Below are positions 1 to 27,521 of a stretch of 34,727 nucleotides of DNA, one piece after another (positions within the stretch are counted from its first letter, which is position 1; every line of letters begins with the position of its first letter). The DNA comes from Akkermansiaceae bacterium (GTDB taxonomy: Bacteria > Verrucomicrobiota > Verrucomicrobiia > Verrucomicrobiales > Akkermansiaceae), in contig JAQWZU010000076.1 of assembly GCA_029253285.1 (NCBI GenBank), positions 1 through 34,727 of the forward strand, in the 5' to 3' direction. A model generated the notes under the pieces. The model did not search any database. It had not been told where the DNA came from and saw only the letters and a program-made list of their open reading frames with translations. A program made the position numbers and the translations under genes.

Positions 1-129
1 TCGGCTGATGAGACGAATCGACAGAGAAGCATTCTTATGAAATCCCATTATTCTAACAATAGAAAAGTTAACTTTTTCGGGCAGGCGCTGATTGTTGAGA
101 TGAAATCGCGGCTTAAAGGATGTTCATAG
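1..129 (+). other. Left-edge stretch, possible 3' end of an upstream gene plus a tiny ORF
   Basis: Two overlapping plus-strand readings exist. One frame is open from base 2 and stops at TGA 38-40, ending LMRRIDREAFL. Another starts ATG at 37, overlapping that stop as ATGA, and runs 30 codons to TAG at 127-129. The ATGA overlap is the arrangement used by other operons in this window, so the first could be the end of an upstream gene. Neither piece is long enough to recognise. The stretch lies just upstream of the GTG start at 156. Low confidence that either is translated. Confidence 0.2.
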
Positions 130-155
130 GCCCTGGAGGGTGATAGAGATCGGCG

Positions 156-3100
156 GTGTTTCCCCCTTATTTTCTTAAGATATGGCTCGCAGCTGCCGTG
201 ACCGTGTTGCCCCTCCTGATCACGGGATGCGGAGAGCCAAAGGACGCTGAATCTGTAAGTTCGGAGGATTCTGCTCCCAACGAATTGATTCAGATTTCCG
301 TAACGTCGGTTGCCCGTGCCGAGCGTCCGAGCAATCTTTCTGTAAAATCTCGTGCCGGAACATCGGATATTGGAATTACGACTTCCGGAAAAGCCACAGC
401 AGCGGATCGCGAAGCTACGAAGCTGAGTCCTGAGGTTTCTGGTTGGGACACGGAGCGTTTGAGTGCCCTGGCTTATAAGAAATTGGGGCAACTGGGTGGG
501 TCATCGGGGGAGGCCGATTTTGGCGGACTTCTCTCCAACGATTTTAAGTCCTCTGCTCTTGTAGCAACCAAGTTGAAGGAAAGTTCGCTCCCTGGTGGTA
601 TCAGGATTCATGAGGGCTCGGTCTTTCCCTCCACAGAAAAAACCCTCGAACAAGAACTTGCAAGTCTGCGAAGCCGGGTCGGCGGCGGGAGTGTGATTCG
701 CTTCAAGCCGGTTGGCGTGGGCCAGCAAAGCAAAGATGGGGGGCGTTTTACCACCAAAGTCTTGGTTGAAGTGGTCGGAGGGCACTCTAATGGAGCCGCT
801 GCTCAAGTCGATGCCGTCTGGCAGTGTAGCTGGCTTGGGACATCTTCGCCGAAGCTGACGAGGATTTCGGTGAAGAGTTACCGTGAAGTTCATTCGCCGG
901 GTGCTCTTTTCAAAGATGCCACGCTGAGCGCTTTTAAGAACACGCCCTCATTTGCGAGGCAGATGATGCATGGAATTGGCTACTGGTCGCAACGTCTGAC
1001 CCGGGTGGACGATATGGAGATCATGGGGCATCACGGGATCGCCGTCGGAGATGTCAATGGCGATGGCTTGGATGATGTCTACGCCTGTGACGGAGGCGGG
1101 CTCCCCAATCGTCTTTATATTCAGTCTCCCGATGGCACGGTGACCGATCAATCGGCAGCCGCCCAAGTGGATTTTCTTGAAGCCTCGCGGAGTGCTCTCA
1201 TTGTGGATTTGGACAATGATGGTGACCAGGATCTCGTCGTTGCCACGGTCGCTCTGATCCTCTTTGCAGAAAATGATGGGACCGGGAAATTTACATTGCG
1301 GGGCGGGCATTCGGGCTCGTCGGGACCCTACTCGATGGCTGCCGCCGACTTTGACAGCGACGGGGACTTGGATGTCTATGTCACAGGTTATGGCAAAAGA
1401 CGCGATTCGGTCTCAGGTGCCCAGGGCTTCGAAGCAAGCTCCCCGATTCCCTACAACGATGCAAAGAATGGCGGCCGCAATCTACTTCTGGCAAACCACG
1501 GGGCATTCCGGTTTTCTGATGTCACCAGGTCTGTCGGGCTTGACGAGAATAACACCCGGTGGTCGTTCGCTGCTACCTGGGAGGATTACGACCAGGACGG
1601 CGATGTTGATCTCTATGTCGTGAACGATTTCGGAAGGAATAATTTTTATCGTAATGACGGAGGCAAGTTTCAGGATATCGCCGCAGAACTCGGCGTGGAA
1701 GACATGGCGGCGGGAATGTCGGCCTCATGGGGGGACCACAATGGCGATGGTAAGCTGGATCTCTACGTTGGAAATATGTTCTCCGCAGCAGGGAAGCGGG
1801 TGACTTATCAAAGGAAGTTCGACGAATCGCGCAGCATTGATGATGTCGCTGCGATGCAGCGAATGGCGCGGGGCAATAGTCTTTTTCAGCAGGGAAGCGA
1901 GGGAGCTTTTCAAGATGTCAGCGAGGTGGCCGGAGTGACCATGGGTCGCTGGGCCTGGAGTTCGGGTTTTGTGGATTTGAATAACGACGGCCGGGAAGAT
2001 CTCGTGGTTGCCAATGGTTACCTTTCGAATCCCGGCACGGACGATTTGTGAAGTTTCTTCTGGCGGCAGGTCGTGTCGCCATCACCGGTCGTTGTGGATG
2101 ACGAAAAAGTAGTGGGTCAATATCAGGCCTCCTGGAAGGCCATCATGCAGCAGGTCCGCGAGGGATCATCGTGGAGCGGCTACGAACGGAATTGCGCGTT
2201 CCTGAATACGGGCGGGCAATTCGCAGCCGCTTCCCATGTCAGTGGTCTTAACTTTTCGGATGATGGACGGGGCCTCGCCGTGACCGATTGGGATCAGGAC
2301 GGCGATCTTGATCTCTGGTTCCGCAATCGGACCGCGCCGCGATTGCGACTCATGCTAAATCAATCATCACCGGAATGCGCGAGCCGCCATCTTGCCTTTC
2401 GATTGACTGGAACCGAATGCAACCGCGATGCCATTGGCGCAGTGGTCGAAGTGCATTTGGAAGGATCCGATCGACGTTTGGTTCGCTCGGTTCGTGCTGG
2501 GGAGATGTATCTCTCACAGTCGAGCAAGTGGGTTCATTTTGGCTTGCCTGAAGATGCGAAGGTCACCGGCGTCTCTGTTCTTTGGCCCGGAGGAGTGCGG
2601 AGCAATTATGAGGGCATCGAGGTGGGCAATCGCTACACTATCAAGCAAGGTGAAACCTCTGCGAGGCGCATTGAGAAGAAGCGCGACTTGACTCTCGAAA
2701 CGGCTCCTTTGGATACGGTAAGCGCGACGAGTGGTCATGCTTCCATTGTCCTCCCTGCGCCCGTGCTTCTGCCCGTTGATTCCTATTTCGATGACGCGGG
2801 AAACCTGACGAGCCTTCCCGTATCAAACTCGCCGTGGCTCCTTCTCCTTTGGTCGGCCGGATGTGAGCATTGCCAAAAGGAACTGGCACAGTTCAGTAAG
2901 ATTCCAGACGATTTCAAGGTCCTGGCTCTCTGCGTTGATGGGAGGGGGGCGGAGCAGCGGAAAAGGGCTCGTGATTTGATTGCGGAGACTGGGTTCGCCG
3001 GGGACTGGGGCATGATTGGTGCGAATCAAGTTGAGCAAGTGCATGTCCTGCAGGAGGCCCTTTTCGATTCCACCCCGAAATTCGCGGTTCCGCTGTCGTT

Positions 3101-3653
3101 TCTTCTGCGTCCCGGAAACGAGATCGTCGCGATCTACCGTGGCCCGATTTTCTCCGAAGTCGTGTCGTATGATTGCCAAACAGCCACAAGGGCGCCGGAT
3201 GTCGCTTTACGAAATCTCGCTCCGCCATTTCGAGGACGTTGGTTTACCTTGTCTGCTCCACCGGCATTCCTACCCAACATGATTGTCCGGCGGATGCAGG
3301 AGCGATATCCTGAAGAGGCGCTGCCTTATCTTCGCCGCGCCGCAGAGAAGTCCGCAATAATCGCCAAACAGAAACTCTTCGCTGAGTTAGGACGCAGGCA
3401 TTACTTCCTCGCTGCCAAATTTGCCTCCGAGCAAAAGATGGGAAAATCTGATCATCATTATCTCAAATCGATTGAAGCCGATCCGAGAAACCCTTCGGTG
3501 CACAATGACTTTGGGAGTTCTCTCGCAGGGAGAGGCCGGTTAGGGGAGGGGAGGAAACATTTCTCGGAAGCCCTCCGCTTGAAACCTGATTTTCCCCTCG
3601 CGAGGAAAAATCTGGCGAAAGTAACAGAGCTTTTAGAGAAGGCGGGGAAGTAA
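156..3653 (+). CDS. Putative selenoprotein: CRTAC1-like FG-GAP/ASPIC-UnbV lipoprotein with thioredoxin-like and TPR parts (Sec632)
   Basis: Read as one 1165-residue protein through an in-frame TGA at 2049-2051 (residue 632). The start is GTG at 156: an in-frame TAG lies at 144-146, and GGAGGG sits at 135-140. Residues 1-25 form a lipoprotein signal ending in the lipobox LITGC (Cys25). Residues 30-285 are unrecognised. Calcium-binding FG-GAP/VCBS motifs of the form DxDxDGxxD lie at about 299, 351, 398, 477, 527, 607 and 711. U632 is followed directly by SFFWRQVV. An ASPIC/UnbV domain spans about 757-827. A thioredoxin/AhpC-like domain spans about 870-1020, with CEHC (Cys903, Cys906) and a PLSFLLRPGNEIV strand. 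TPR-like helices run from about 1100 to the end. The family is known as surface or secreted beta-propeller proteins; a redox role is inferred. Both halves stay fully open with no second lesion. The alternative is a nonsense mutation or two separate genes. Confidence 0.72.
2049..2051 (+). other. In-frame UGA proposed to encode selenocysteine
   Basis: This is the only stop in a frame otherwise open from 147 to 3650. It lies between NPGTDDL and SFFWRQVV, after the sixth calcium motif of the FG-GAP propeller. A hairpin resembling a bacterial SECIS element begins 9 nt downstream. Ordinary nonsense mutation remains possible and cannot be excluded from one sequence. Confidence 0.68.
2061..2081 (+). 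promoter_or_regulatory. Bacterial-type SECIS hairpin candidate
   Basis: The left arm TGGCGGCA (2061-2068) pairs with the right arm TGTCGCCA (2074-2081): 8 bp including one G-U. The loop is GGTCG (2069-2073). The apical run GCAGGTC (2066-2072 is GCAGGTC) equals the apical part of the E. coli fdhF SECIS as I remember it. Its loop GG begins 17 nt after the UGA, against about 18 nt in fdhF. SelB is known to contact the GGUC-type loop. The bulged U of the E. coli stem is not evident here; a G-U pair sits nearby. The same bases encode WRQVVSP, so the signal overlaps coding sequence, as is usual in bacteria. Confidence 0.65.
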
Positions 3654-3657
3654 TCAC

Positions 3658-4782
3658 TTACTCGATCACCCAGTCATAGGTGGGCGTGTTGATGAATTCC
3701 CAGCCGTCTTCGGTGATGACCACGGTGTCTTCGATTCGGCAGCCGCCGTGTTCGGGGAGATAGAGCCCGGGTTCGATGGTGATGACGTGGCCGGGTTCCA
3801 TCGGTCTGTCGTGATCTCTCAGAGAAGGAGGTTCGTGAACGTCGAGGCCCAGTCCGTGTCCGATGCCGCAGTAGCATCCTTCCCATTTTCCGTCTTCACG
3901 TTGGCGGGTGGGATAGCCGGCGGCGTCGAGAATATCGCGTGCAGCCGTGTCGACGGCACCGAATTTTTTGTCCGGTCCTAGTTCCGCGAGAGCCGCGAGG
4001 TGGGAGGCGTAGACGGTGTCATAAATGTGCTGCTGTTTCTCACTCGGCTGACCTTTGATGAAGGTCCGAGAGAGGTCGCCAAAGTAGAAACTCTCATCGT
4101 CGCGTGGGAAGATATCAACCACGATCATCTCGTGCGCCTTGACTGGTCCGAACCCGATACAGTGGCAATCAGCCGCCTGCAGGCCCGAGGCTGCGATAGG
4201 GCTATTGACGCCACCTCCGACTGCCGATGTGGCCACGCGAATTTCCCGACGGAGAGTTTCGCAAGTGAGCACTTCTCCTTCGAAGGAAAGCGTATCGTCC
4301 GCTCCAATTTCGCTCGCAGATAAAATCTCTCGCACTCGCGCAAAACCGGCTTCTGAAATCCGGGCGCCCTCCCGGCATCCTTCGATCTCGTCCGCTGACT
4401 TGATCCATCGTTCCGGGAAAAGATCATCTTGTTCGATCTCCAATGATACTCCCAGTTTCGTCAACTCCTGGTAGTAAGCCACCGGGTAGTGATGGGGCAC
4501 GGTCAGAGTTGGGTATCCCAATTCCTCGATCAAGACCGCCATGGCGGCCGGTTTGCTCCGACTGCCAAACTTGGCCTCGGCCTTGTCCTGGTAGTCGACC
4601 AACTCATAAACCTCAGTGAATCTTCCTTCGTTCCTGGCCCGTTCCAGCTCCATTCGGTGAATCAAGCAGACGGGGGCATCCAGTGGTCCCATGAGGGTGA
4701 TCGGGTCCATCGATTTGAAACGGCCAAAATAATAACCATCGGCTTCCGTTTCGGTGATGGATTCGATCAGAACGTGTCTCAT
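3658..4782 (-). CDS. M24 family metallopeptidase (Xaa-Pro aminopeptidase-like)
   Basis: A cytoplasmic dinuclear-metal peptidase of the pita-bread fold, expected to remove N-terminal residues preceding proline or to cleave dipeptides. The ATG at 4782 gives 374 residues; a GTG at 4806 in the same frame would add eight. From the ATG, the N-terminal creatinase-like part covers about 1-140 and the catalytic domain about 145-374. The five expected metal ligands are visible: Asp223 in VVDIFPRD, Asp236 in GDLSRTF, His309 in GIGHGLGLDVHE, Glu337 in IEPGLY and Glu351 in RIEDTV. No signal peptide is present, unlike most neighbours. It converges on the selenoprotein candidate with only four bases between the stops, so no separate terminator fits. 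Family is confident; exact substrate is unknown. Confidence 0.88.
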   Translation of the reverse strand: MRHVLIESITETEADGYYFGRFKSMDPITLMGPLDAPVCLIHRMELERARNEGRFTEVYELVDYQDKAEAKFGSRSKPAAMAVLIEELGYPTLTVPHHYPVAYYQELTKLGVSLEIEQDDLFPERWIKSADEIEGCREGARISEAGFARVREILSASEIGADDTLSFEGEVLTCETLRREIRVATSAVGGGVNSPIAASGLQAADCHCIGFGPVKAHEMIVVDIFPRDDESFYFGDLSRTFIKGQPSEKQQHIYDTVYASHLAALAELGPDKKFGAVDTAARDILDAAGYPTRQREDGKWEGCYCGIGHGLGLDVHEPPSLRDHDRPMEPGHVITIEPGLYLPEHGGCRIEDTVVITEDGWEFINTPTYDWVIE

Positions 4783-4806
4783 TGCGTTGATTGTTCTTTG
4801 AATCAC

Positions 4807-4961
4807 GATCGATCACAAGCCGTTAAATCATTGAGTTTTCTTGGTTTGGCGGAGGAAGCAGACATTCTGCGGTATTCTATTTACGGGAGAGAAACGGGTT
4901 GTTTTGGATTGGTTGGTCAACCGACATAAGGAGAGATTACCAAAGTCCTTGTCTCACGCCC
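4807..4961. other. Short intergenic spacer
   Basis: 155 bases between the M24 peptidase start and the end of the CotH-type gene, both on the minus strand. It should hold the peptidase promoter, but no convincing -35/-10 pair was recognised. A small near-palindrome, GGTTGGTCAACC, lies around 4911-4922. Nothing else is supported. Confidence 0.3.
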
Positions 4962-7900
4962 CTAAAGAGACTTCGGCCGCGCCGCGACCCGCGCAAATCT
5001 TCGTATTGGCACTCCTGCTTCGGGCGCAGGGATTCGCACGGTAATCGTGGTGATCTCGCCATCACTTTCGGACCCGATGTGCTCGGTTGTCGCATCCGTC
5101 CAGGAGCGCAGATCGCTCGACTCCTCGACGATGAACTCGAGATCGAGCGCGGGATTGCGAAAGCGATAAGTGAACTCGAGCGATACTCCGTTGAAAGCGA
5201 TGCTCGTGAGGGCCTCGGCGACACCGCCGGTTGCACGTGGATCGGTCCCGAACGCGTAATGATAGAAATTCGAATACCCATCGCCGTTGGCATCGACATC
5301 GGGTCCCGAGATCAGCGGGTCACCAATTTCGGCCTCCGTGAAATGCTGATTCAGCCAGCCTGCATACTGTTGGAGGATCACGGTACTGTTCTGCGCACCG
5401 GGACTGCCATCGGCATCTCCGCCGATTCCCCAACCAAGAGCACCATCCCAATCGTTCCAATGGGCTGTTTCATCATCCACCACCAAGGCATACCCACTGC
5501 CGTCGGTGGCGGGAAACCAGCGGTCGTTGTAGGTGAACTTCAAGATGTTCTCCCCAACCGCATCGTGGAGTTGCACCGTCTCTCCGTCGTTGCTGAGGCG
5601 CCCGGTATATTGACCGGCGACGAGGGCGGGCGAAACACCGGGGTAGCGCAGCGCGAAGGCTGTGGCATTCGACACCACTAAAAGATGCGCCCCGGAGGCG
5701 AGGAAGGTGCCGGCGGGAAAGACAAAGTCGATGCCGTTCACGAAGCTGGCTCCGCTCAGGGCAATGGTGGCGGGGCCGATGTTCTTCAGCTCCACAAACT
5801 CAAAGAAGTCGTCGTTGCCATAGCCGTCGGCGATCTCAGCCGAGCTCGGGTCGGTGGGATGATAGTTGAGTTCGGTGATGCGGAGGGATTGTTGCAAGTC
5901 AGTCGGTGAGCCGCCGTAGCTGGCTGTGGTCACGATGTTTCCGTTTTTGTTACGGATGGTGATTGCTTCGCCGCGTGCGGAGAGCTGGCCTTGGTAGCGT
6001 CCCTGCACGAAGTTCTCCTCGTTGCCGGTCGGGCCTGTGGCGCGCGCGCGGAAGGCGTTGACGTCCGGAGACAGGTAGAGCGGCAGCCCGGTCGCCGCAG
6101 CAGGGATGACCGTTCCCGGCTTGAAGTTGTGTTCGATGGCTCCCTCGACGGTCCAACCTGACACATCGACCGCAAAGCTGTTGGGGTTGGTGATCTCGAC
6201 ATACTCCTCGTCCTGATTGCCGGAAGCCGGATTGAAATCGATCGCGCCAATAGTGAGTGGCACGACACTCGGCTGGGCGCCCGGGATTCCGACCGACCCG
6301 GCCGGTCCGCCCACGGCGTGCGTCTGATAAAGATACCCCCGCCGTTCATCGAGGTAGTTGGTCTTGAGCAGGGAAATCGCGGTGGGGAAATCGCGGATGC
6401 CGCCGTAAATGGCTCCCCACTCGGCGAGATCGAGGGCGGCATCGGGAGTGGCAGCGTTGGCCAATTCGTCAATGCGAGACTCGAATCCCCGCTCGGCGAT
6501 CGGCGTGCCGGGTGCCTGGAGTTGCTCGTCCATCAAGGTCCGCAAGCGCCGCAAGTACATCTCGCGGGTGCGTGGATCGGTGATGACAAGATCGATCATC
6601 AGGTTGGGCGTTCCACAACAGGCGTGGGCCGCCGCACCCTGGAAGGGATGGGCGCGACGCTTTTGCGCGGAGAGTCCCGACTCGAACGAAAACCCATTGC
6701 CGCTGATCTCGTCATCGTAAAAACGGTTTCCCAAAGTGAGATCTTTGTCCCACGGAATTTGCGACCACTCGCCGGAACCGTTGGTGTCCCGGTAGACGTA
6801 GAAGTTCTTGGCCCAGCGGTCGAAGTCCTGGGAGATGATCCCGGCAGTGGCGTAGTTGATCATCGCGGGAATGTCGACGTGGTCGAAGAGATACTCGGCG
6901 CGGTTGGGATTCGAAGGGCTGACGCCGCTGACCAAGGCCTGCAGGTCGGAGTTGTTCTCGTGCTGCCGCGTTTTCTTTTCCACCCCGGAGCTCGACGAGG
7001 TGACGCCGTTGAACATCTTGTAGAGCGCGCCTTCCCGATCGAGCCCGCGTCGATCCAGTAAATCGTCATCCACCTGTTCCACAAAGCTGGCCACGCTGAA
7101 GAACGCGCCGTTTTGCTGGACCCGCCAGGTGTCGGCGTGACTGGCGGCAACACCCGCCGCGGTGTAGGACTCGTAGGAGAGCTGCGGACGGATGTAGGCC
7201 TTGTCCTGGAAGGTCGAGTTGACATTGATCTCGCTCACGCGCGCGGCAGCGGGGTCGAAGCGGAAATGGTGGCCGCTGTTGAAATCAAATTTGTAGGATT
7301 TTTTGGCCACGCCTGCCGAGCTGGCCCCGCGCCTGCGGGTAAAGACGTTGTCGTAGAACTGTCCGTCGAAGGAGACCGACGAGCGGGTCCCGCTGCCCGT
7401 GTTCGCCGCTCCTGGCGAGGCGACAAACCAGAATAAGGTCGGCAGCGCCGACACCACCGCAGGGTCGTCGACCATCGTGCCGAAATACTGGGGCGAGTTG
7501 GCGGGATCCAGATAGGCCGGTTCACGTCGCGAGACACTGGCGCTGTCCTCGGCGGTGACATACCAGCGCACCATTTCGCCGGGCAAGGAGGCCGCGTGTG
7601 GAATGGTGGCGCTAAACTGCCCGTTGCCCAGATCGTTCATCGGCACCGCCTGTTCCGCTCCAAACATCACTCGGTAGTGAAGGGTGACCGAGGCGACCGG
7701 ATTCGCAAGGGCAGCGATTTGCGCGGAAATCACAAGGTCATCGCTGTCACCCGGGCTGGGCTGGGGGCTGTCGGTGACATTGCTGATGAACGGTCCCAAT
7801 GTCGAAGGTTTGGCGGGGTTCGCCGTCCCGGGAGTGGGGGAGGTGAAGAACCCAATCGTCATCAGTTCACTGGCTAGTCCGTAGGAAATATCGGTCACCT

Positions 7901-9470
7901 GCGGAGGGAATTCCGGGGCGAAGGAATGGACCACCGTCAGGCCATCAGGTTGGACGAGACCAAGAAACTCGCCTCCGGCGGAAAGCGAGAAGTTGGTGTG
8001 GAGGAAGCCCCCCGCATCAATGTAGTCGTCCTCGTTCTGGTTCGAGGCAAAGACAAGGAGGTATCCGCCCGCCGGAACGACCACGGAGGGAAACTGCCAC
8101 TTGTCGAGCTTGTCCGCTCGGTCGGTGAGGTGCCAGCCGCCGAGGTTCACCGGAGCGGCGCCGAAGTTGTGAATCTCGATCCAGTCGGACGAATTCCCGT
8201 CGCCGTCGTTGAGGGTCGTGTCATTGCTGGTCATGAACTCCGAGATGATCAGCGTGGATGGCAATTCGACGACCTCGAGGTTGAGGAGGAAGATGGAATC
8301 CGGTTCGCCGGAAAAGCTGGCCGTGATGGTGTAATCAGCCGCCGCAGTGAGGGAACTCGGCGTGCCGGTGATGACCCCGGTGAGCGGATCAAGCATCAGG
8401 CCGGTCGGTAAGGGCGGGGAAACCGCATAGCTGTTCGGCGTCCCGCCAAGCACCTGGGGCGTGTTCGGGGTAATCGACACTCCCGCGATGTAACTCGCCG
8501 GACTGGTCGAGTAGCCGGTCAGGATCGAGTTCGCGACAACCGAGAGGTCGAGGGTTGCCTCCTGATCGGGGCCGGTGGTAAACGATGCGTTGATGGTGTA
8601 TTCGGTCGAGGGAGAGGTTGTCGCAGGTGTCCCGGAAATGGTGCCGGTGACCGGGTCGATGGACAGACCGGCGGGGAGGGTGGGGGAGATGCCAAAGCCA
8701 CTTGCGGCGTCGCCGGTGAGCAGGGCGAAGTTCGGCACGATTGCGTGACCCGCCACGTGAACCGCAGGGTCGGTCGCGTATCCCTCAAAGACCGGGGCGT
8801 CGAGCGAGACCTGAAGGTTGTCGATGGCTCCACCGAAACGTCCGCTGCCGAAGGCCGAGGGGCCGATGCGCAAGCGGATGTCGCCATTGCCGTCCCCGGT
8901 GTATTGAAAACTGTCCGCGGCGAAGACGATATTCCCCGCCCAGGCACCGGGATTGTGCGTGTGGCTGGCGAGGATGTTGGAACCGGAATCGAGAACCTCG
9001 ATCAAGAGTCCATCACTGGCCGAAGTCTGCTGACTGCCCGCCTGGTACACCGCCGGACTGGCCTCGAAGCTCACCTCGTAGGTCACCCCTGCGTCGTTCG
9101 ATCCGGGAATCGCGCTACTCTGCGTGATGACGTTGTTCTGCCAGATCATCACCGCGAAATCCCGCGGGTTCACGATACCGTTCGCAAAGATGTTTGCGGT
9201 ATCCACCACGTGGACGGTGCCACTTCCCGATTTCCCCCAGTCGGGCAAGGTGCCGGAATACGCCACCGCCAGCCCGGATTGGTATTGGCCGCCATTGAAG
9301 TTTCCCCCGGAAGCAGTGAAGCCGTTGAAATCTTCGGTGAAGATCTGTGCCTCGCCGGGAGTGGCGAGGCAGAGAAGAAGGACCGCCATCACGGCCGCGA
9401 CCGAGTCACGAAGGGGGTTGATAATGATGTCGGGGAGCAGAGGTTCGAATTGTCGTATGTTAGGGATCAT
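4962..9470 (-). CDS. Exported CotH-kinase/lamin-tail multidomain protein
   Basis: About 1502 residues from ATG at 9470; a GTG three codons upstream is also possible. A hydrophobic segment (VAAVMAVLLLCLATPGEAQ) near residues 24-42 looks like a Sec signal. Next come a roughly 200-residue module beginning IFTEDFNGF, shared with the two genes upstream, two putative-Ig repeats (LPAGLSIDPVTGTISGTP; LPTGLMLDPLTGVITGTP) and a lamin-tail domain (LIISEFMTSND, SDWIEIHN). The CotH region follows, with FYVYRDTNGSGEWSQIPWDK, whose DxD-type ending is characteristic of CotH kinases. Two further lamin-tail-like repeats (EYVEITNPN; FFEFVELKN) precede a C-terminal beta region. There is no PEP-CTERM anchor at the end. 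CotH proteins are known spore-coat kinases in Bacillus; in this phylum they are large surface proteins of unclear role. Cell-surface location is inferred. Confidence 0.82.
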   Translation of the reverse strand: MIPNIRQFEPLLPDIIINPLRDSVAAVMAVLLLCLATPGEAQIFTEDFNGFTASGGNFNGGQYQSGLAVAYSGTLPDWGKSGSGTVHVVDTANIFANGIVNPRDFAVMIWQNNVITQSSAIPGSNDAGVTYEVSFEASPAVYQAGSQQTSASDGLLIEVLDSGSNILASHTHNPGAWAGNIVFAADSFQYTGDGNGDIRLRIGPSAFGSGRFGGAIDNLQVSLDAPVFEGYATDPAVHVAGHAIVPNFALLTGDAASGFGISPTLPAGLSIDPVTGTISGTPATTSPSTEYTINASFTTGPDQEATLDLSVVANSILTGYSTSPASYIAGVSITPNTPQVLGGTPNSYAVSPPLPTGLMLDPLTGVITGTPSSLTAAADYTITASFSGEPDSIFLLNLEVVELPSTLIISEFMTSNDTTLNDGDGNSSDWIEIHNFGAAPVNLGGWHLTDRADKLDKWQFPSVVVPAGGYLLVFASNQNEDDYIDAGGFLHTNFSLSAGGEFLGLVQPDGLTVVHSFAPEFPPQVTDISYGLASELMTIGFFTSPTPGTANPAKPSTLGPFISNVTDSPQPSPGDSDDLVISAQIAALANPVASVTLHYRVMFGAEQAVPMNDLGNGQFSATIPHAASLPGEMVRWYVTAEDSASVSRREPAYLDPANSPQYFGTMVDDPAVVSALPTLFWFVASPGAANTGSGTRSSVSFDGQFYDNVFTRRRGASSAGVAKKSYKFDFNSGHHFRFDPAAARVSEINVNSTFQDKAYIRPQLSYESYTAAGVAASHADTWRVQQNGAFFSVASFVEQVDDDLLDRRGLDREGALYKMFNGVTSSSSGVEKKTRQHENNSDLQALVSGVSPSNPNRAEYLFDHVDIPAMINYATAGIISQDFDRWAKNFYVYRDTNGSGEWSQIPWDKDLTLGNRFYDDEISGNGFSFESGLSAQKRRAHPFQGAAAHACCGTPNLMIDLVITDPRTREMYLRRLRTLMDEQLQAPGTPIAERGFESRIDELANAATPDAALDLAEWGAIYGGIRDFPTAISLLKTNYLDERRGYLYQTHAVGGPAGSVGIPGAQPSVVPLTIGAIDFNPASGNQDEEYVEITNPNSFAVDVSGWTVEGAIEHNFKPGTVIPAAATGLPLYLSPDVNAFRARATGPTGNEENFVQGRYQGQLSARGEAITIRNKNGNIVTTASYGGSPTDLQQSLRITELNYHPTDPSSAEIADGYGNDDFFEFVELKNIGPATIALSGASFVNGIDFVFPAGTFLASGAHLLVVSNATAFALRYPGVSPALVAGQYTGRLSNDGETVQLHDAVGENILKFTYNDRWFPATDGSGYALVVDDETAHWNDWDGALGWGIGGDADGSPGAQNSTVILQQYAGWLNQHFTEAEIGDPLISGPDVDANGDGYSNFYHYAFGTDPRATGGVAEALTSIAFNGVSLEFTYRFRNPALDLEFIVEESSDLRSWTDATTEHIGSESDGEITTITVRIPAPEAGVPIRRFARVAARPKSL

Positions 9471-9490
9471 GAATGTCACGCTGAAGGGAT

Positions 9491-12539: not shown

Positions 12540-13337
12540 ATGAAATCCGAGCAGCAGATCGTCACTACAGAAGAATCACCCGGTTCCGTTCCCGCTTTGG
12601 ATCGGACTCTTGATATCCTGGAGACCCTGAGCAGCTTGCCGAAAGGTCTCACCCTCTCGGAGCTAAGTCTGCAGCTTGAGATCCCGAAGAATGCGGTATT
12701 CCGCATCACGCAGACCTTGATGGCGCGTCGCTACCTCTCGCGGGATGCGGAGACGATGGCCTTCCAGCTGACCGGGCAGTGGCTGAAGTTGGCCACGCCA
12801 CGACTGGGCGGCATGAGCTTGGCGGCCCTAGCCCGTCCGGCGATGACTGCTTTACGAGATGTTACTAGTGAAACCATTCAGTTGGGAGTGCTGAGTGGAC
12901 TGGAAGGAACAATTATTGAGCAGGTGGAGGCAACCCAACCCCTGCGTATCGTGGTGGATCTTGGACTACGTTTTCCCCTGCACAACAACGGACCGGGCAA
13001 GCTTCTCCTGGCCCATCTCTCCGATGATCAGCGTGATCAGGTTCTCTCCCAAATTAAGTTGCCAGCCAGCACCCCGCGCACGATCACGAGCAAGGCTGAG
13101 CTGCGGAGGGAATGCGCACGGATCGTATCGCAAGGCTACGCGACCGACCATGCCGAGGCCGACGAGGGGATTCATTGCATCGCGGCTCCGGTCGTCGATG
13201 AATTTGATGGTGTGGTGGGAGCGCTGTGGGTCACCGGCCCGGCGAAACGTTTACCGAAGAGTCGCTTCTCTGAGCTTGGAACTCAGGTGCGGGCGGCAGC
13301 GGACCAGGCGTCGCGTCGAGTCCAGGAGTTGTCATGA
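12540..13337 (+). CDS. IclR family transcriptional regulator
   Basis: 265 residues from ATG at 12540. The frame is open further upstream, and an ATG at 12480 lies inside the inverted repeat, so the later start is preferred; no strong ribosome site is seen at either. The N-terminal winged helix-turn-helix covers about residues 17-80 (PALDRTLDILETLSS; LTLSELSLQLEIPKNAVFRI). The C-terminal IclR effector domain is about 90-262 (GPGKLLLAHL; GYATDHAEADEGIHCIAAPV; GVVGALWVTGP). The family senses small organic acids or sugar-derived metabolites and may repress or activate. Its stop overlaps the next start as ATGA, so it is probably co-transcribed with the DUF1592 and DUF1552 genes and controls that operon. 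The ligand is unknown. Confidence 0.9.
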   Translation: MKSEQQIVTTEESPGSVPALDRTLDILETLSSLPKGLTLSELSLQLEIPKNAVFRITQTLMARRYLSRDAETMAFQLTGQWLKLATPRLGGMSLAALARPAMTALRDVTSETIQLGVLSGLEGTIIEQVEATQPLRIVVDLGLRFPLHNNGPGKLLLAHLSDDQRDQVLSQIKLPASTPRTITSKAELRRECARIVSQGYATDHAEADEGIHCIAAPVVDEFDGVVGALWVTGPAKRLPKSRFSELGTQVRAAADQASRRVQELS

Positions 13338-16138
13338 AGCAGATTGGTTTGATCGTAGTCAGTATCACGTGCCTGGTGGGCTCGGCAGTTCTGGCGGCTT
13401 CCTTTGATGAGAAGGCGGTGGAAGTTTTGGAGCACTATTGTTTCGACTGCCACGATGATGCTTCACAGAAGGGGAATCTCAACATGGAGAAGCTTCTCAG
13501 GGAGGACAGCTTCGACGGGGCCTTGATGTTCGAAAATCTGCTCACCGGAAAAATGCCTCCGGCCAAAAAAGAGCAACCGGAGGCGGAGGAGAAACGGGCG
13601 GTGCTGGATTGGCTGGCTAAGCAGCAGAGGGATCATCATCAAAAATCCTTCCGTCGTCTGAGTCGGCATGAATTTGTCCATTCGGTGAATGATTTGCTGG
13701 GGACGAATCTCGATCTTGCCGGTAAGATTCCCGAAGATCGGGGGACGAACGATTTTGATTCCAACCGGAAGATCCAGTTGAGCCGTGAGATGCTCGGGTC
13801 GTATTTTTCAGTGGCAGACGAAATGCTTGATCAGGCCTTTCCGGAGGATGGGTTTCCAGTGGAGAAAAGTTGGGTGGTCAACAGGGTGAGAGATAGCCAC
13901 GAAATGTATCGGAGTTTTCATCGTCCGTATCAGGACGGAACTCTTTTTTCGTGGACCCGCTCCAACAATGGGATCAGCTATTCATTCTTCTACGATGGCT
14001 TCGAGCCTCCCGTGGCGGGCTGGTATGAGCTGACCTTCGATGCTGCGAAGGTGGCGGATTTTGAAGATGACATGAGTTTGCAGGTTCATGCCGGGAGGTA
14101 CTACTACGCCGATGATCGCCCTCAGCCGCAGCGTTTGCTTGGGGTGATCTCTCTTGGCAATCGCGAGGTCGAATCGCGAACGATTCGCGCTTACCTCCAT
14201 CCCGGAGAAAGCGTTTCGGTGCACTGCTATTCCCGTCACAATTTTCGAGAACGGAACCCAAAGCGGGGAATCTACATTAAGCAGTTGAAGGTGCGCGGGC
14301 CCTTGGTTGATTCATGGCCTCCTTCTTCCTATCAGCAGGTTTTTGACGGGCTGCCGATTGAGGCCCCGTCGCGTGAGGATGGTGAGGTTTTGGGATTTCA
14401 AACCAAGCTTCAGGAAATCGGTGGTTCGGTGTCAGTGAGCAGTTTTCAAACGGGGATGGAGAAAGAGAAGATGCAGGATGGCTCGAACCTGACCTTCTGG
14501 CACACGCGCTTCTCGCCCACCGTGGCGAAGCCGCCGCATTACGTGATCTTTGAAAATCCAAATGGAGCGGGCATTGAAGGGCTTTCCTTTGCAACTTGGC
14601 AAGGCGGCAATGGCAACGGGCTGGTGAAGGCCTTCGAAGTTTACTTCTCGGACGACGGTAAGAACTGGGGTGAGAAGGTGATGGTTGGGGATCTCGATGT
14701 GAGCTTTGCCAACGTGCAACCGATTGTCTTTCCGAAGAAAACGACTCGCCGTTTTATCAAATTCCTCATCACCGATGCCGTTTCCCTGGATGGGAAATCA
14801 ATCGCTTCGATTGGTAAGCTTGATGTCGTCACATCGTTGCGTGCGCCTGCTGAAAGCTCTGCCATTGAAGTTGCTTCGAGATCTCCCAAAGATCTGAAAG
14901 GAGTGATCCGACGATTCGCCGGCCGGGCGTTTTCATCGACCTTGAGCGAGGAAGAGTTGGAGCCTTATTATCAGCTTGGGCTTCTTCGACTCGATGATGG
15001 CGGCGATTTCGTGCAAGCCACCAAGGTTGGCCTGAAGGCGATTCTTTGTTCGCCTAGGTTTTTGATGGCACCCGGAGAGCATGCCAATCCCTCCTTTGCC
15101 AGGGCGGCGGATCTTGCCCGGGTTCTCTGGCTGTCAGTTCCAGATGAGGAACTTCTTTCGGTGGCCGCGGCCGGAGAGTTTCATGGTGAATCGCTTCGGA
15201 GTCAGGTTGTAAGAATGCTAGACGATCAACGAAGTGCCCGCATGATTCGTTCTTTTAGCGATCAATGGCTCAATCTTAGGGGCCTCAATAAAGTGACCCC
15301 TTCGCTGAAGCTTTATCCGCTCTACGATGATCTTCTGAATCATTTTCTGCCGATTGAAACCCGGCGTTATCTGCAGCACCTGGTTCAAGAGGATCTTCCC
15401 GCCCGAAATCTCATCGACTCTGACTTCACTTTTCTCAATCAACGTCTCGCCCGGCACTATGGAGTCGAGGGCGTGGTTGGGCAGAAGATGCGGAAGGTGA
15501 CATTTCCTGCGGGGAGTCCAAGAGGTGGCTTGATGACGATGGCAAGTGTGCTGAAGGTGACGACGGATGGTTTCGATACCTCGCCTATCCTGCGGGGAGC
15601 TTGGATCTCCAAAAATATTGTGGGCACTCCCTTGTCACCACCGCCGGAGAGCGTTCCAGCCTTGGAACCGGAACACGGAGAAGCGAAGACGCTCAAGGAG
15701 CAGATCGATCAGCACAAAAGCAACAAGACCTGCTACGCCTGCCACAAGAGCATCGATCCCTATGGCTTTGCGCTGGAGAGCTTTGATGCGAGTGGGGAAT
15801 GGCGCGCGAGATACAAGATCAAGCAGGCGCACAGGAGCACCTTCACTTATCGACCTCAGGGATTTTTCAAAATCGGAGCCGTGGTGGATGCTTCGGGAGA
15901 GATTGGCGAAGATCGCTTTGAGAATATCTTCGGTCTCAAGAAGGTCTTGCTCTCCAACCAGCAGAAGATCGCTTATAACTTTGCCAAGAAATTCTTTGAG
16001 TATGCCCGGGGCGAAAAACCGAACCTGGAGCAGCGCCTTCACCTATGGGATTTTCTTGGGAAGGCGGAGGAAAACGTCCGCTTGAAAAATATTGTCACCG
16101 AGGTGTTAATCATAACCCTCAACGAATCGAAGAGATGA
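13334..16138 (+). CDS. DUF1587/DUF1592/DUF1588/DUF1585 c-type cytochrome-like protein with discoidin-like insert
   Basis: 934 residues from ATG at 13334, with CAGGAG five bases before it. A Sec signal ends near residue 21-22. A first haem motif CFDCH is at residues 36-40 (PSD1-type) and a second, CYACH, at 800-804. Visible parts in order: DUF1587 (HEFVHSVNDLLGTNLDL), a carbohydrate-binding-like beta region (about 210-320), and a roughly 140-residue segment reading like an F5/8 type C/discoidin domain (AFEVYFSDDGKNWGEK, RFIKFLITDA). DUF1592, DUF1588 (GGLMTMASVLKVTTDGFDTS; IDPYGFALESFDASG) and DUF1585 near the end complete it. The family is widespread in Planctomycetes and Verrucomicrobia and of unproven activity; periplasmic haem-linked oxidation of a glycan or its products is often proposed. 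Start/stop overlaps on both sides define an operon with IclR and DUF1552. Confidence 0.88.
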   Translation: MKQIGLIVVSITCLVGSAVLAASFDEKAVEVLEHYCFDCHDDASQKGNLNMEKLLREDSFDGALMFENLLTGKMPPAKKEQPEAEEKRAVLDWLAKQQRDHHQKSFRRLSRHEFVHSVNDLLGTNLDLAGKIPEDRGTNDFDSNRKIQLSREMLGSYFSVADEMLDQAFPEDGFPVEKSWVVNRVRDSHEMYRSFHRPYQDGTLFSWTRSNNGISYSFFYDGFEPPVAGWYELTFDAAKVADFEDDMSLQVHAGRYYYADDRPQPQRLLGVISLGNREVESRTIRAYLHPGESVSVHCYSRHNFRERNPKRGIYIKQLKVRGPLVDSWPPSSYQQVFDGLPIEAPSREDGEVLGFQTKLQEIGGSVSVSSFQTGMEKEKMQDGSNLTFWHTRFSPTVAKPPHYVIFENPNGAGIEGLSFATWQGGNGNGLVKAFEVYFSDDGKNWGEKVMVGDLDVSFANVQPIVFPKKTTRRFIKFLITDAVSLDGKSIASIGKLDVVTSLRAPAESSAIEVASRSPKDLKGVIRRFAGRAFSSTLSEEELEPYYQLGLLRLDDGGDFVQATKVGLKAILCSPRFLMAPGEHANPSFARAADLARVLWLSVPDEELLSVAAAGEFHGESLRSQVVRMLDDQRSARMIRSFSDQWLNLRGLNKVTPSLKLYPLYDDLLNHFLPIETRRYLQHLVQEDLPARNLIDSDFTFLNQRLARHYGVEGVVGQKMRKVTFPAGSPRGGLMTMASVLKVTTDGFDTSPILRGAWISKNIVGTPLSPPPESVPALEPEHGEAKTLKEQIDQHKSNKTCYACHKSIDPYGFALESFDASGEWRARYKIKQAHRSTFTYRPQGFFKIGAVVDASGEIGEDRFENIFGLKKVLLSNQQKIAYNFAKKFFEYARGEKPNLEQRLHLWDFLGKAEENVRLKNIVTEVLIITLNESKR

Positions 16139-17367
16139 GTGATTTCAGCAGAAGAGAGTTTTTGAAATTTGGAGCGGCCCTTCCGTTGGCTTTACATTCG
16201 CTGAATGCGCGGGCGGCAAGCACCCCGGGAGTGAAAGCTCCGCCGAAACGGGTCATCTTCATTTGCAATTCGCTCGGTTTCTATGAACCAAATTTCTTTC
16301 CCACCAAGCGGGGGGACTTGACTAGTTCCAAGTATCTCAAGGAAATGGCAGTGAGAGAGAAAATGACGGTCTTTCAAAACCTCTTCCATCCGGGCATGGA
16401 GACCAGCAATCATGACTCGGAAAAGTCTTTCCTGACTGGAGCACCGAGTCCCGAGGCCACGAATTTCACCAATACTATTTCTCTTGATCAGATCCTCGCC
16501 CGCGAGATGGGTGGTGACACGCGCTTCCCGTATTTATCCTTCAGTATCTACGACCGTGGCTGGGGATGTTCCTGGAATGATCGCGGGGTAGCCATTCCAC
16601 CTATGCATGACGAACGGCAGATCTTTGAAAGGCTCTTTGGTGAAGAAAATCTGAGTGCGAAGCGCCAACAGATCGAGAACGACCAGCAGATCGTGAAATC
16701 CCTTTATCGCGATATGGAGCAGATCAAGAAGAAGGGCGGAGATGCCTCGAAGATCGAATCTTACCGGACCGTCATTTTAGAACTGGAAGCGCAATTGAAG
16801 CATGAGGAATTTTGGCTTAAGACCAAAAAGCCGGAAGTTCCAAATACCTTGAGTGATGATCAGGAATTCGCTTTCTCAACCAAGGTGCGCAATCTCTTTG
16901 AACTCTCCAAGCTGGCCTTGCAGACGGACTCGACGCGGGTCATTACGCTCTCGCTCGATTGGATTTATGGCGCGATCAATGTTCCCGGCGCGACGGGGGG
17001 ATGGCATACGCTGTCCCATCATGCGGGGAAGGCGGATGCGCTGAACAAACTCAGCCGGATCGAAGTCGATATCGTCAAACATCTCGACCGCTTTCTCGCT
17101 GAGCTCGATCAGATCGACGAAGGAGAGGGCAGTTTACTGGACCATACCACCGTGGTGATCGGGAGTAATTTTGGTGATTCTTCAAATCACACCTGCAACA
17201 ATCTCCCGACCATCGTGGCAGGCGGTGGCTACCGTCATCAAGCCCACACTGTCCTCGAAAAGCCGACTCCGCTTTGCAACCTCTACCTGGAGCTCCTTCA
17301 CAAGCACAATGTGGACTTGGGCTCCTTCGGAAGTAGCAAGAAGGACCTCGGCTTGCTCAAAGGGTAA
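16135..17367 (+). CDS. DUF1552 family Tat-exported protein
   Basis: 410 residues from ATG at 16135, which overlaps the preceding TGA as ATGA; the frame is open upstream, but the overlap and the following Tat signal decide the start. The twin-arginine signal is SRREFLKFGAALPLAL, residues 5-20. The body has typical DUF1552 features: PPKRVIFICNSLGFYEPNFF, SEKSFLTGAPSPEATNFTN, SLDQILAREMG, a charged coiled segment about 180-250, and DHTTVVIGSNFGDSSNHTCN near the C-terminus. The fold is thought related to alkaline phosphatase/sulfatase-like proteins, but no activity is established. Tat export fits a folded cofactor-bearing partner for the cytochrome-like protein encoded just upstream. Confidence 0.9.
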   Translation: MSDFSRREFLKFGAALPLALHSLNARAASTPGVKAPPKRVIFICNSLGFYEPNFFPTKRGDLTSSKYLKEMAVREKMTVFQNLFHPGMETSNHDSEKSFLTGAPSPEATNFTNTISLDQILAREMGGDTRFPYLSFSIYDRGWGCSWNDRGVAIPPMHDERQIFERLFGEENLSAKRQQIENDQQIVKSLYRDMEQIKKKGGDASKIESYRTVILELEAQLKHEEFWLKTKKPEVPNTLSDDQEFAFSTKVRNLFELSKLALQTDSTRVITLSLDWIYGAINVPGATGGWHTLSHHAGKADALNKLSRIEVDIVKHLDRFLAELDQIDEGEGSLLDHTTVVIGSNFGDSSNHTCNNLPTIVAGGGYRHQAHTVLEKPTPLCNLYLELLHKHNVDLGSFGSSKKDLGLLKG

Positions 17368-24716: not shown

Positions 24717-27521
24717 ATGAGTTCTCATTCAGCTATTTGTCATCTTGCTTTCATCGTGGGATTACTTCTTTCCGCTCCGGGAGCATGGGCCAAACTGGAA
24801 TTCAATCGGGATGTTCGGCCGATTCTTTCCGACAAATGCTTCGCGTGTCATGGGTTTGATGCGGAGACTCGGGAGGCCGGGTTGAGACTAGATACTGAGG
24901 AAGGAGCTTATTCTTTGAAGGATGGCGTGCAGGCGATCAAGCCGGGCGCTTTGCAAGAAAGCGAAGTCTGGCACCGCATCACTCATTCGGATGAAGACGA
25001 ATTAATGCCTCCACCGGAGAGTAATAAGAGTCTCACGGAAGGCGAAAAAGAAGTGCTCAAGCGTTGGATTGAGGATGGTGCTAAATACCAGCCGCACTGG
25101 GCTTTTGTGCCGCCAAAAAAGAGGGCGACTGAGGTGGTATCGGGAGCGCGCAATCCCATTGATCAATTCATCGGAGCACGTCTCGAAGAAGAGGAACTGT
25201 CGTTCTCGCCTGAGGCTGATCATACGACCTTGATTCGCCGGGTCACTTTGGATCTCACCGGCTTGCCGCCGTCTCGGGGATTACTCGAGGCCTTTTCGAA
25301 AGACAAGGCACCGGGCGCCTACGAGCGATTGGTTGATCGCTTAATGTCTTCGCAAGACTATGCCGAACGCCGGGCGCAAGACTGGCTTGATTTGGCCCGC
25401 TATGCCGACACCCGGGGCTTTGCCGATGACAAGATGCGCGAGATTTGGCCCTATCGGGATTGGGTGGTGCGATCACTGCATGACAACATGCCTTTTGATC
25501 AATTCACTATCGAGCAGCTGGCCGGGGACATGCTGCCCAACGCGACCGATGAACAACGGATCGCGACGGGCTTTCATCGCAATGCTCCCCAGGCGCGTGG
25601 TCAAACGTATCCGGTCGAAGAGTATCGCCTTAAAGGCGTCACCGACCGCGTCAATACGACGGGAAAAGTTTGGTTAGGTTTGACCATGGAATGTGCGGAG
25701 TGCCACGACCATAAATTCGATCCGATTAGTCAGCGTGACTACTTTTCGCTCTTCGCGATTTTCAACAACACCGAGCACCGTGGCAAGGGGCATGGACAGG
25801 GAGGTCCGACGATGAAGTATCACTACATGCGGAACGGGAAGAGCGAGGATGAACGAAAGAAGCTCCAAGCGGAGTTGAGTAAAGCCAGGGCGGCTTTGCC
25901 GGAATCACCTCTGCTTGGCGATGATGGGTTGCTGGGTCAGTGGGAACGGGTGAATCCCGATGCGGGGAACGAAAAGTTTAACCCCACCGGGGATCTCACC
26001 ATCACCGCGCGAATCAAAACCCGCCAGAAAGTGGCCAGCGTATTGTCGAAATACGATTGGCGGGGAAAGCAGCGCAGCTATGTCTTTGGGATTGGTGGCG
26101 AGGGAGAGAAGGAAGCTACCCCGGGGCATTTGTTCTTTTGGGTGTCTTCACGCACCGATCCCTTCGATGGAGTTTCTCTTTATGGAAGTCAGCCAGTGAA
26201 TGACGGAGAGGAGCACCGGGTCTCGGTGGTATTTGAGGCAGGGAATTCAGTGCGGCTTTTTGTCGATGGCGTGGAAGACAAGTCTGCCCGGGTGATCGGG
26301 AAGGTGCCGGAGACGATTGCGATTTCAAATCGCCCCTTGGCAATTGGCGTGGGGTATCGGAATGACGCCGGAGCGAAGGCCTATCGATTCGAGGGAGACC
26401 TCAAGGATGTGCGGCTCTACGGTCGGGCACTTGGCAAAGAACTGGGCTCGGGTAAATCGGGTGAGAGGGTGGCTGAATTGATGGCGGCTCTGGGAGGAGG
26501 GAAATCAGAAGGGAAAGAAGTAAGTGCTCCGGTGATGCGGGAACTGTCGAAGCCTCGTGACACCTTCATTCATCTGCGAGGCAGTTTTCTCAGTCGTGGT
26601 GATCAGGTCGGTCCTGCTGTTCCCGGGATTCTGGCGAATGAAGGCGAAGAGCAAGCGGAGAACCGGCTCGAGTTTGCTCGTTGGTTGGTGAATGGGAAAA
26701 ATCCCCTCGTGGCACGGGTAGTCGTGAATCGTTTTTGGCAAAGTTATTTCGGCCATGGTTTGGTGCGAACGTCGGATGACTTTGGATCTCAAGGGACGCC
26801 GCCCACTCATCCGGACTTACTTGATTGGCTGGCCAGCGAGTTTGTCGAAAGCGATTGGGACATGAAGCACATCAATCGCTTGATTGTGACTTCGGCGACT
26901 TATCGGCAAGCCGCCCGGATTTCCTCGGCTCATCGAGAGAAGGATCCGACTAACGAACTGTATGCGCGAATGCCACGTGTTCGCCTGCCGGCCGAGCAGA
27001 TCAGGGATCAGGCGCTCGCGATTGGCGGGTTGTTGAAGCCTCTGGCTGGTGGTCCAAGTGTCTTTCCTCCTCAACCGAACAGGTATTGGGAGGATCGGGA
27101 CCTGCCCGGCAAGTGGGTTGCGAGCAAGGGCGATGATCGTTATCGCAAGAGTCTCTACACCTATTGGCGGCGGATGGCGCTGCATCCCACGATGGAGTTG
27201 CTCGATGCTCCGGCTCGTGCGGTCTGCGTGTCGAAACGAACTACCGCAAATCTCCCGACTCAGGCGCTCGTGACTTTGAATGCTCCGGTCTTTGTCGAAT
27301 CCGCTCAAGGTTTAGCGAAGAGACTTCTCGCGGAGCCTGAGGATCAAAAGGCCCGCCTTGATCTCGCCTTCCGGCTTTGCCTCGGAAGACGTCCTGCTCC
27401 AGCCGAACAAATAAAGTTCCTCGGCTTTCTGGAGAGTCATCCAGCTAAATCCAAAGATGCGGCCTGGGTTAGTGTGGCGACCATTCTTTTGAACCTCGAC
27501 GAAACCATCACGCGACCATGA
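24717..27521 (+). CDS. PSD1-DUF1549-LamG-DUF1553 c-type cytochrome-like protein
   Basis: 934 residues from ATG at 24717 with GAGG just upstream. Sec signal to about residue 25 (GAWA). The PSD1 cytochrome domain carries CFACH at 41-45 with EFNRDVRPILSDK before it. DUF1549 spans about 140-350 (NPIDQFIGARLEEEE; LIRRVTLDLTGLPP; GDMLPNATDEQRIATGFHRN) and includes a second CAECH motif followed by DHKFDPISQRDYFSLF. A LamG/concanavalin-like insert lies about 415-575 (LTITARIKTRQKVASVLSKY). DUF1553 occupies about 640-900 (PLVARVVVNRFWQSYFGHGL; RLPAEQIRDQAL). The family is abundant in Planctomycetes/Verrucomicrobia; activity is unproven. Its TGA overlaps the ATG of the DUF1501 gene, its usual partner. 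Confidence 0.92.
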   Translation: MSSHSAICHLAFIVGLLLSAPGAWAKLEFNRDVRPILSDKCFACHGFDAETREAGLRLDTEEGAYSLKDGVQAIKPGALQESEVWHRITHSDEDELMPPPESNKSLTEGEKEVLKRWIEDGAKYQPHWAFVPPKKRATEVVSGARNPIDQFIGARLEEEELSFSPEADHTTLIRRVTLDLTGLPPSRGLLEAFSKDKAPGAYERLVDRLMSSQDYAERRAQDWLDLARYADTRGFADDKMREIWPYRDWVVRSLHDNMPFDQFTIEQLAGDMLPNATDEQRIATGFHRNAPQARGQTYPVEEYRLKGVTDRVNTTGKVWLGLTMECAECHDHKFDPISQRDYFSLFAIFNNTEHRGKGHGQGGPTMKYHYMRNGKSEDERKKLQAELSKARAALPESPLLGDDGLLGQWERVNPDAGNEKFNPTGDLTITARIKTRQKVASVLSKYDWRGKQRSYVFGIGGEGEKEATPGHLFFWVSSRTDPFDGVSLYGSQPVNDGEEHRVSVVFEAGNSVRLFVDGVEDKSARVIGKVPETIAISNRPLAIGVGYRNDAGAKAYRFEGDLKDVRLYGRALGKELGSGKSGERVAELMAALGGGKSEGKEVSAPVMRELSKPRDTFIHLRGSFLSRGDQVGPAVPGILANEGEEQAENRLEFARWLVNGKNPLVARVVVNRFWQSYFGHGLVRTSDDFGSQGTPPTHPDLLDWLASEFVESDWDMKHINRLIVTSATYRQAARISSAHREKDPTNELYARMPRVRLPAEQIRDQALAIGGLLKPLAGGPSVFPPQPNRYWEDRDLPGKWVASKGDDRYRKSLYTYWRRMALHPTMELLDAPARAVCVSKRTTANLPTQALVTLNAPVFVESAQGLAKRLLAEPEDQKARLDLAFRLCLGRRPAPAEQIKFLGFLESHPAKSKDAAWVSVATILLNLDETITRP

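Follow-up and report, generated by a model that had tools for sequence, protein, structure and literature searches.

The 34,727 nt stretch of Akkermansiaceae bacterium DNA analysed here, hereafter the window (positions 1 to 34,727 of contig JAQWZU010000076.1, assembly GCA_029253285.1), has near its start a gene for a large protein of the CRTAC1 type, the reading frame of which contains an in-frame UGA codon (Table 1). Reading of the open reading frames (ORFs) from 156 to 3653 gives 631 codons, a TGA at 2049-2051, a further 533 codons and a TAA. The TGA is the sole interruption, as an earlier sequence-only reading of the window had described in proposing that it encodes selenocysteine (Sec) at residue 632. 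The G+C content at third codon positions (GC3) is alike in the two halves, both of which are intact, at 0.57 and 0.59. Elsewhere in the window TGA is the stop codon of six ORFs, five of which have Pfam domains; because of this a standard code was taken to be in use, and the reassignment of UGA was rejected. With the same TGA recurring in homologues, a hairpin of the Sec insertion sequence (SECIS) type following it and the sel genes present in the genome, all of which support the proposal, it is very probable that this UGA encodes Sec and that the gene is that of a selenoprotein.

Table 1. Features of the putative selenoprotein gene, in window coordinates.
Feature	Position	Strand	Basis and remarks
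Full selenoprotein gene	156..3653	+	1,165 residues with Sec632; GTG start from ORF calling; TAA stop
Predicted signal peptide, lipobox-like ITGC ending at Cys25	156..230	+	By eye; lipobox rule
CRTAC1-type FG-GAP beta-propeller, about residues 247-736, spanning the UGA	894..2363	+	Pfam FG-GAP_3; AlphaFold2; match to 9etn
UGA codon, predicted to be read as Sec632	2049..2051	+	First residue of predicted helix 632-640 (modelled as Cys)
Predicted SECIS hairpin	2061..2081	+	Arms 2061-2068 and 2074-2081; loop GGUCG 2069-2073; model R1 match 2052-2087, 56.8 bits
UnbV_ASPIC domain, residues 759-828	2430..2639	+	Pfam
TlpA/StoA-like thioredoxin domain, about residues 862-1009; CxxC C903/C906 at 2862-2873	2739..3182	+	AlphaFold2, fold match, conservation
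C-terminal TPR helices, about residues 1038-1165	3267..3650	+	Pfam below cut-offs; AlphaFold2, fold match

The sequence-only reading had singled out column 632 for comparison, and both recurrent UGA and Cys were found there. Once duplicates, rows with fewer than 180 aligned residues and those with identical residue contexts had been removed, the source genome and its relatives supplied 116 homologous rows, of which 97 have TGA in this column. So do all 83 rows from 80 named loci, where rows with fewer than 150 were dropped and 7 of the 83 duplicate records of the relatives. Among the eight nearest homologues without UGA the residue is Cys in four, within the context DYC[TS]x[FY]W, Asp in three and Gly in one; only in eleven remoter rows does it vary among Leu, Ser, Val, Glu, Met and Ile. 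All 19 of these rows fall outside the UGA clade. In a quick tree, made after near-duplicates and rows of fewer than 220 residues had been removed, a single change on a branch with a Shimodaira-Hasegawa-like approximate likelihood ratio test (SH-aLRT) value of 84 separates 129 UGA rows, and no Cys form was found inside the clade that they make up.

Nine genes of the source genome have TGA at the homologous codon: that of the window, four close paralogues, 43-54% identical to it across the first half with E no higher than 1.7e-122, each of which breaks at the homologous TGA, and four remoter members, two of them on contig C157, one on C138 and one on C40. Three FG-GAP proteins inspected in the same genome (C118:35-41 kb, C215:34-39 kb and C93) lack UGA at the site. 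The core region was matched in 38 of 58 genomes (the source and 57 relatives) and, among the matches listed, each one covering the site has one TGA; that on contig C58 of G004, listed without a TGA, is a fragment not reaching the site. A 27 nt context pattern was found in 29 of the 58 genomes, with seven matches in the source genome among those listed, against one match in all 58 for the reversed pattern. Among the matches listed, one relative (G026) has 14 of them, such that this one family may give it a large selenoproteome.

A scan of named genomes retained the best 80 of at least 193 confirmed relatives, all 80 of which have the TGA. By the submitters' titles these loci comprise 47 from Verrucomicrobiota, 26 from Planctomycetota, five from Acidobacteriota, one from Pseudomonadota and one unplaced, nearly all from metagenome assemblies. 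The scan used patterns away from the site and a query with Cys at it, but the query was built from members of the UGA clade only, and the ranking favours that clade; because the query was so composed and only the best 80 were retained, Cys forms may rank below the limits of the scan. A plasmid collection yielded only six records, all remote (26-32% identity). To judge from these sequence comparisons, the predicted selenoprotein is no isolated case but one of a multi-copy family found in at least three phyla. Short-form members at six loci (L165, L168, L169, L171, L174 and L176) occur as two adjacent genes on opposite strands, each with an in-frame UGA.

Folding of positions 2049-2090 reproduced the 8 bp hairpin with a GGTCG loop that the sequence-only reading had described. 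It starts 9 nt past the UGA, with its loop 17 nt past it, and has a minimum free energy (MFE) of -14.2 kcal/mol. The likeness to the SECIS of Escherichia coli fdhF, also noted there, held when both sequences were read: in each a UGA is followed by a hairpin with an apical GCAGGUC, at an offset of 15 nt in E. coli K-12 and 14 nt in the window. However, fdhF encodes formate dehydrogenase H, and the two predicted hairpins diverge outside the apex. In a 2026 review (PMC13188914), the legend to Figure 2 gives bacterial SECIS elements a loop of 3-9 nt, a stem of 4-16 bp, a G within the first two loop positions, a UGA-to-loop distance of 16-37 nt and an MFE of at most -7.5. The window hairpin lies within all five, having a 5 nt loop, 8 bp, GG, 17 nt and -14.2 respectively.

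Alignments of the main clade (A1) and of a second clade (A2), together holding 88 of 89 distinct 36-mers, contain seven pairs around GGUCG in the former and six around GGUC in the latter, the outermost pair (columns 11-29) being formed in just 26 of 61 rows. Across both clades the 5' arm and the GGUC apex are constant, and only the 3' arm is displaced, by a single base. The covariation score and the percentage paired were matched by none of 500 shuffles in either clade and by no slid control. The mean MFE over nucleotides 10-32 was -9.6, compared with -4.8 (sd 0.2) under synonymous recoding, and a value of at most -7.5 over the same nucleotides was reached by 146 of 165 sequences, compared with 15.6% when recoded. 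The sign of a SECIS that we graded as most telling is found in the main clade, where the wobble base of an Arg codon is complementary to the base that opens the Ser, Pro, Ala or Thr codon four places downstream. This holds in 130 of 137 sequences, where 103.4 would be expected; by partner codon, Pro goes with G (13/13), Ala with C (10/13) and Ser with A or G (104/110). The mean fold energy of the 19 non-UGA homologues is -2.7, as against -9.6 for the 97 UGA rows; the former have a mean of 2.7 of six pairs, and one reaches -7.9 through a different fold. Hence, to judge from these alignments, the predicted hairpin goes with the UGA and is not retained in homologues without it.

A search of the site with bSECISearch or a covariance model had been proposed, and we built a model of our own (R1) in place of the former; it finds the UGA sites and none of the non-UGA homologues. 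R1 was trained on 62 rows from the source and related genomes, with the window site among them, and gave 81 matches in all but one of the 80 named loci, which together span 551,963 bases. Each of the matches lies directly after the TGA, in a test made partly non-independent by the 7 of 83 named rows shared with the relatives. Planctomycetota and Acidobacteriota account for 31 loci, all outside the related genomes, and 30 of these were recovered; the overall misses were L250 and, at L211, the second, short member. In 22 other loci (21 with non-UGA homologues and one with selD) there was no match at E up to 1. Across the window R1 finds the site and also a weak match at 13000 (E 0.75).

The genes for inserting Sec, whose presence the proposal called for, were all found in the source genome above curated cut-offs: SelA at 490.6 bits, SelB at 274.6, SelD at 373.5 and tRNA-Sec, the product of selC, at 54.0 with anticodon TCA. 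The selD gene of this genome (G000:C135:17623-18552; L267, L273) is itself that of a selenoprotein, with an in-frame TGA in the context LSSCGG-U-ASKLG. Among the 29 genomes with an observed UGA member, the source included, selA was detected in 29, selB in 26 and tRNA-Sec in 23; at the thresholds used, the figures for the remaining 29 were 8, 11 and 12. This tally counts genomes with weak, uninspected core matches (G012, G022, G032, G041, G044, G053, G055 and G057) as UGA-negative. In the 16 genomes where no sel gene was detected, no UGA member was seen either, and of the 20 named carriers tested for selB, 18 have it above the cut-off. Two genomes, G042 and G049, have a tRNA-Sec above cut-off (50.5 bits), with selA and selB undetected at the thresholds used.

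A series of domains running unbroken across the UGA had also been proposed, and stands: FG-GAP and UnbV_ASPIC domains were identified by Pfam, and TlpA-like and TPR domains by fold. An AlphaFold2 model from 55 sequences, with Sec represented as Cys, has a predicted local distance difference test score (pLDDT) of 90.0 and a predicted template modelling score (pTM) of 0.91, and places the propeller across the UGA in one predicted domain. Residues 247-833 match murine CRTAC1 (PDB 9etn) with a Z score of 39.8 and a root mean square deviation of 2.4 over 455 aligned residues (Foldseek E 1.3e-21). A fold search matched the C-terminus to TlpA/StoA/CcmG thioredoxin-like proteins and TPR arrays, whilst Pfam gave no thioredoxin match in the window protein at E 0.01. 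With the CRTAC1 family, which includes bacterial sequences titled 'CRTAC1 family protein' as well as the murine structure, the protein shares UnbV_ASPIC and the fold of the propeller core, for which 9etn is the best PDB match. Unlike that family, it has the putative Sec at an inserted helix, a lipobox-like start and fused TlpA-like and TPR domains. The C-terminal domain has the fold and CxxC of the TlpA/StoA/CcmG proteins, but is fused to a propeller, and the Sec lies outside the thioredoxin motif.

In the model the helix that residue 632 opens is inserted in the propeller. A second model, of the short member on contig C40 of the source genome (pLDDT 85.7, pTM 0.87), likewise has the Sec position opening a helix, 595-604. 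Cys counts were made in an alignment (A4) of 55 of 65 rows, picked to span the long form with exactly one TGA, and thus cover long UGA forms only. The near-invariant positions are 632 (the Sec), 903 (54/55) and 906 (53/55), the next most frequent being present in 46 and 44 of 55.

We propose that SelB carrying Sec-tRNA(Sec) would bind the hairpin just 3' of the UGA at 2049-2051, such that Sec would be inserted as residue 632 of an exported CRTAC1-type propeller protein. Export and lipid anchoring are probable, on the strength of the lipobox-like ITGC. The location of Sec632 at the start of a modelled helix would favour a reactive selenolate, which in the long forms the fused TlpA-like CxxC domain would probably re-reduce during turnover. 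The protein might most plausibly be an extracytoplasmic reductase or peroxidase, a role suggested by position and fold and to which we attach about an even chance. The broader proposal is of a new class of extracytoplasmic selenoenzyme, with an active-site Sec at the tip of a propeller-inserted helix and, in long forms, its own fused reductase. The class would be multi-copy, ancient, distributed over at least three phyla, a main reason for these bacteria to keep selenocysteine and, because the UGA clade showed no Cys version, Sec-obligate; taken as a whole, this proposal is evenly balanced.

A number of observations weigh against these readings. As a single sequence, the hairpin has a z score of only -1.88 against 200 dinucleotide shuffles, eight of which were equally stable; it is therefore unremarkable on shuffles alone, and the case rests on comparison. 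A search of window positions 1-5000 with Rfam gave nothing above threshold; the four snoRNA matches that fell below it, of which two were on the opposite strand and all lay downstream of the site, were rejected. Two stricter measures of covariation are weaker. The number of pairs changed on both sides was reached by 21 of 500 shuffles in A1 and 158 in A2, and that of further pair types by 14 and 156, respectively; for the former number, some slid versions match or beat the structure. RNAalifold picked a different, 3 bp helix from A1, which was set aside in view of the covariation score, slid-partner controls and per-sequence folds, all favouring the 7-8 bp hairpin. Five distinct sequences, one of them from the source genome (C157:9021), make up a small third group that fits the register of neither clade; they fold into a different hairpin, with energies of -10 to -16 kcal/mol across 42 nt. 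As to the machinery, kinship confounds and inflates the association between sel genes and UGA members. No selB was detected in three of the 29 UGA-bearing genomes (G005, G008 and G015, which are 80, 88 and 65% complete) and no tRNA-Sec in six; two named carriers lie below the selB cut-off (L254 at 235.7 bits, and L205 at 167.1 bits in a 404-residue frame); and G055 has one context-pattern match, yet no detected sel gene. L205 (Limisphaerales MED-G186, a 2.7-Mb assembly) and G008 thus have UGA members with no selB over cut-off, which may reflect an assembly gap or loss. Redox chemistry is deduced solely from position and fold, and no thioredoxin domain is present in the short members that were scanned, that on C40 having only FG-GAP and ASPIC by Pfam. 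The original argument that a CxxC domain fits redox chemistry therefore stands in part: the domain is present in long forms, but the argument is incomplete, as shorter members keep the Sec without it.

This last point would also fit a selenoprotein in which Sec632 is a metal ligand, or another structural or binding residue, with no redox function. Many invariant Asp residues of the propeller suggest bound cations, and three homologues have Asp at column 632 itself. The fold is shared, at Z about 23, by aldos-2-ulose dehydratase (4a7k and 4a7y, one of which is titled as depleted of active-site metal). According to PMC13188914, some 20% of selenoprotein families have a predicted capacity for binding, and metals account for about 70% of these interactions. 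On the other side, the residue is at the N-terminus of a helix in both models, a near-invariant CxxC lies within the same chain in the long forms, and four homologues have Cys at the column. We regard a non-redox role as possible, if somewhat doubtful.

In any selenoprotein gene, translation is expected to terminate at the UGA part of the time. Were termination complete, the UGA would be a true stop, leaving a 631-residue protein and, 3' of it, either a separate gene or dead sequence; in-frame GTG codons past the UGA, at 2073, 2094 and 2112, could serve such a gene, and the expected partial termination is also compatible with it. However, such a protein would end in the middle of the propeller, conservation continues across the UGA in the UGA rows (DLUSxxWRxVV-like), the homologues with Cys, Asp or Gly have continuous frames across the site, and a hairpin accompanies the UGA, all of which make a true stop most improbable. 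Just as improbable is that the UGA is read through without selenium, by a near-cognate or suppressor tRNA inserting Trp, Cys or Ser. The three incomplete UGA-bearing genomes with no detected selB would accommodate this, but the source genome has SelA, SelB, SelD and a tRNA-Sec with the TCA anticodon, selA is present in 29 of 29 carriers, the SECIS-type hairpin resembles that of fdhF, the nearest homologues have Cys at the column, and UGA acts as a stop elsewhere. A sequencing error or pseudogene, which the draft state of the source genome (224 contigs) might suggest, is refuted because the TGA recurs at this codon across nine of that genome's genes and across assemblies from many projects, and the halves on either side of it are intact and of similar GC3.

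The reading of the UGA as Sec would add a protein to those known as selenoproteins. Table 1 of PMC13188914 has 119 prokaryotic selenoprotein families or subfamilies, with no FG-GAP, ASPIC or CRTAC1 entry in the part available, and in the available text FG-GAP, UnbV, CRTAC, VCBS and two phylum names are unmentioned; its families include UGC-containing TlpA, UshA-like, ExtKL and TonB-dependent receptor proteins, which, like that of the window, are bacterial selenoproteins. NCBIfam 20.0 has no family model for the protein, only TPR models matching, far below cut-off. A search of the literature for selenoproteins with ASPIC, UnbV, FG-GAP, CRTAC1 or VCBS domains found nothing relevant, and a term search of PMC9312934 gave no match. 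The available passages on deep-Sep name other families. Their authors note that every selenoprotein known so far now appears to have a Cys homologue, and that any lacking one may be lost at their filtering step; such a filter, with the lack of a Cys member in the UGA clade, may be the reason this family was missed. A CRTAC1/ASPIC selenoprotein is hence absent from the sources searched, PMC12013277 and PMC4807772 among them: the insertion system is known, and the predicted Sec-bearing CRTAC1-type protein is not among the known ones.

Annotation that terminates at UGA would be expected to split each of these large proteins into two, and those Verrucomicrobiota, Planctomycetota and Acidobacteriota with such proteins would have larger selenoproteomes than are listed. 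With no Cys member in the UGA clade, the reason why these proteins cannot do without Sec can be put to a direct test.

Other genes of the window include two modules of planctomycete type, one at 13334-17367 and the other at 24717-28930, with PSD3/PSD4/PSD5/PSCyt3 and DUF1552, and PSCyt1/PSCyt2/PSD1 and DUF1501, respectively. On the reverse strand, 31513-34140 encodes a protein kinase domain and a C-type lectin domain in a single protein, and 4962-9479 a CotH kinase protein of 1,505 residues with lamin-tail domains (LTDs). A second CotH/LTD protein is found near the UGA member on contig C40 (L271:1025-4300).

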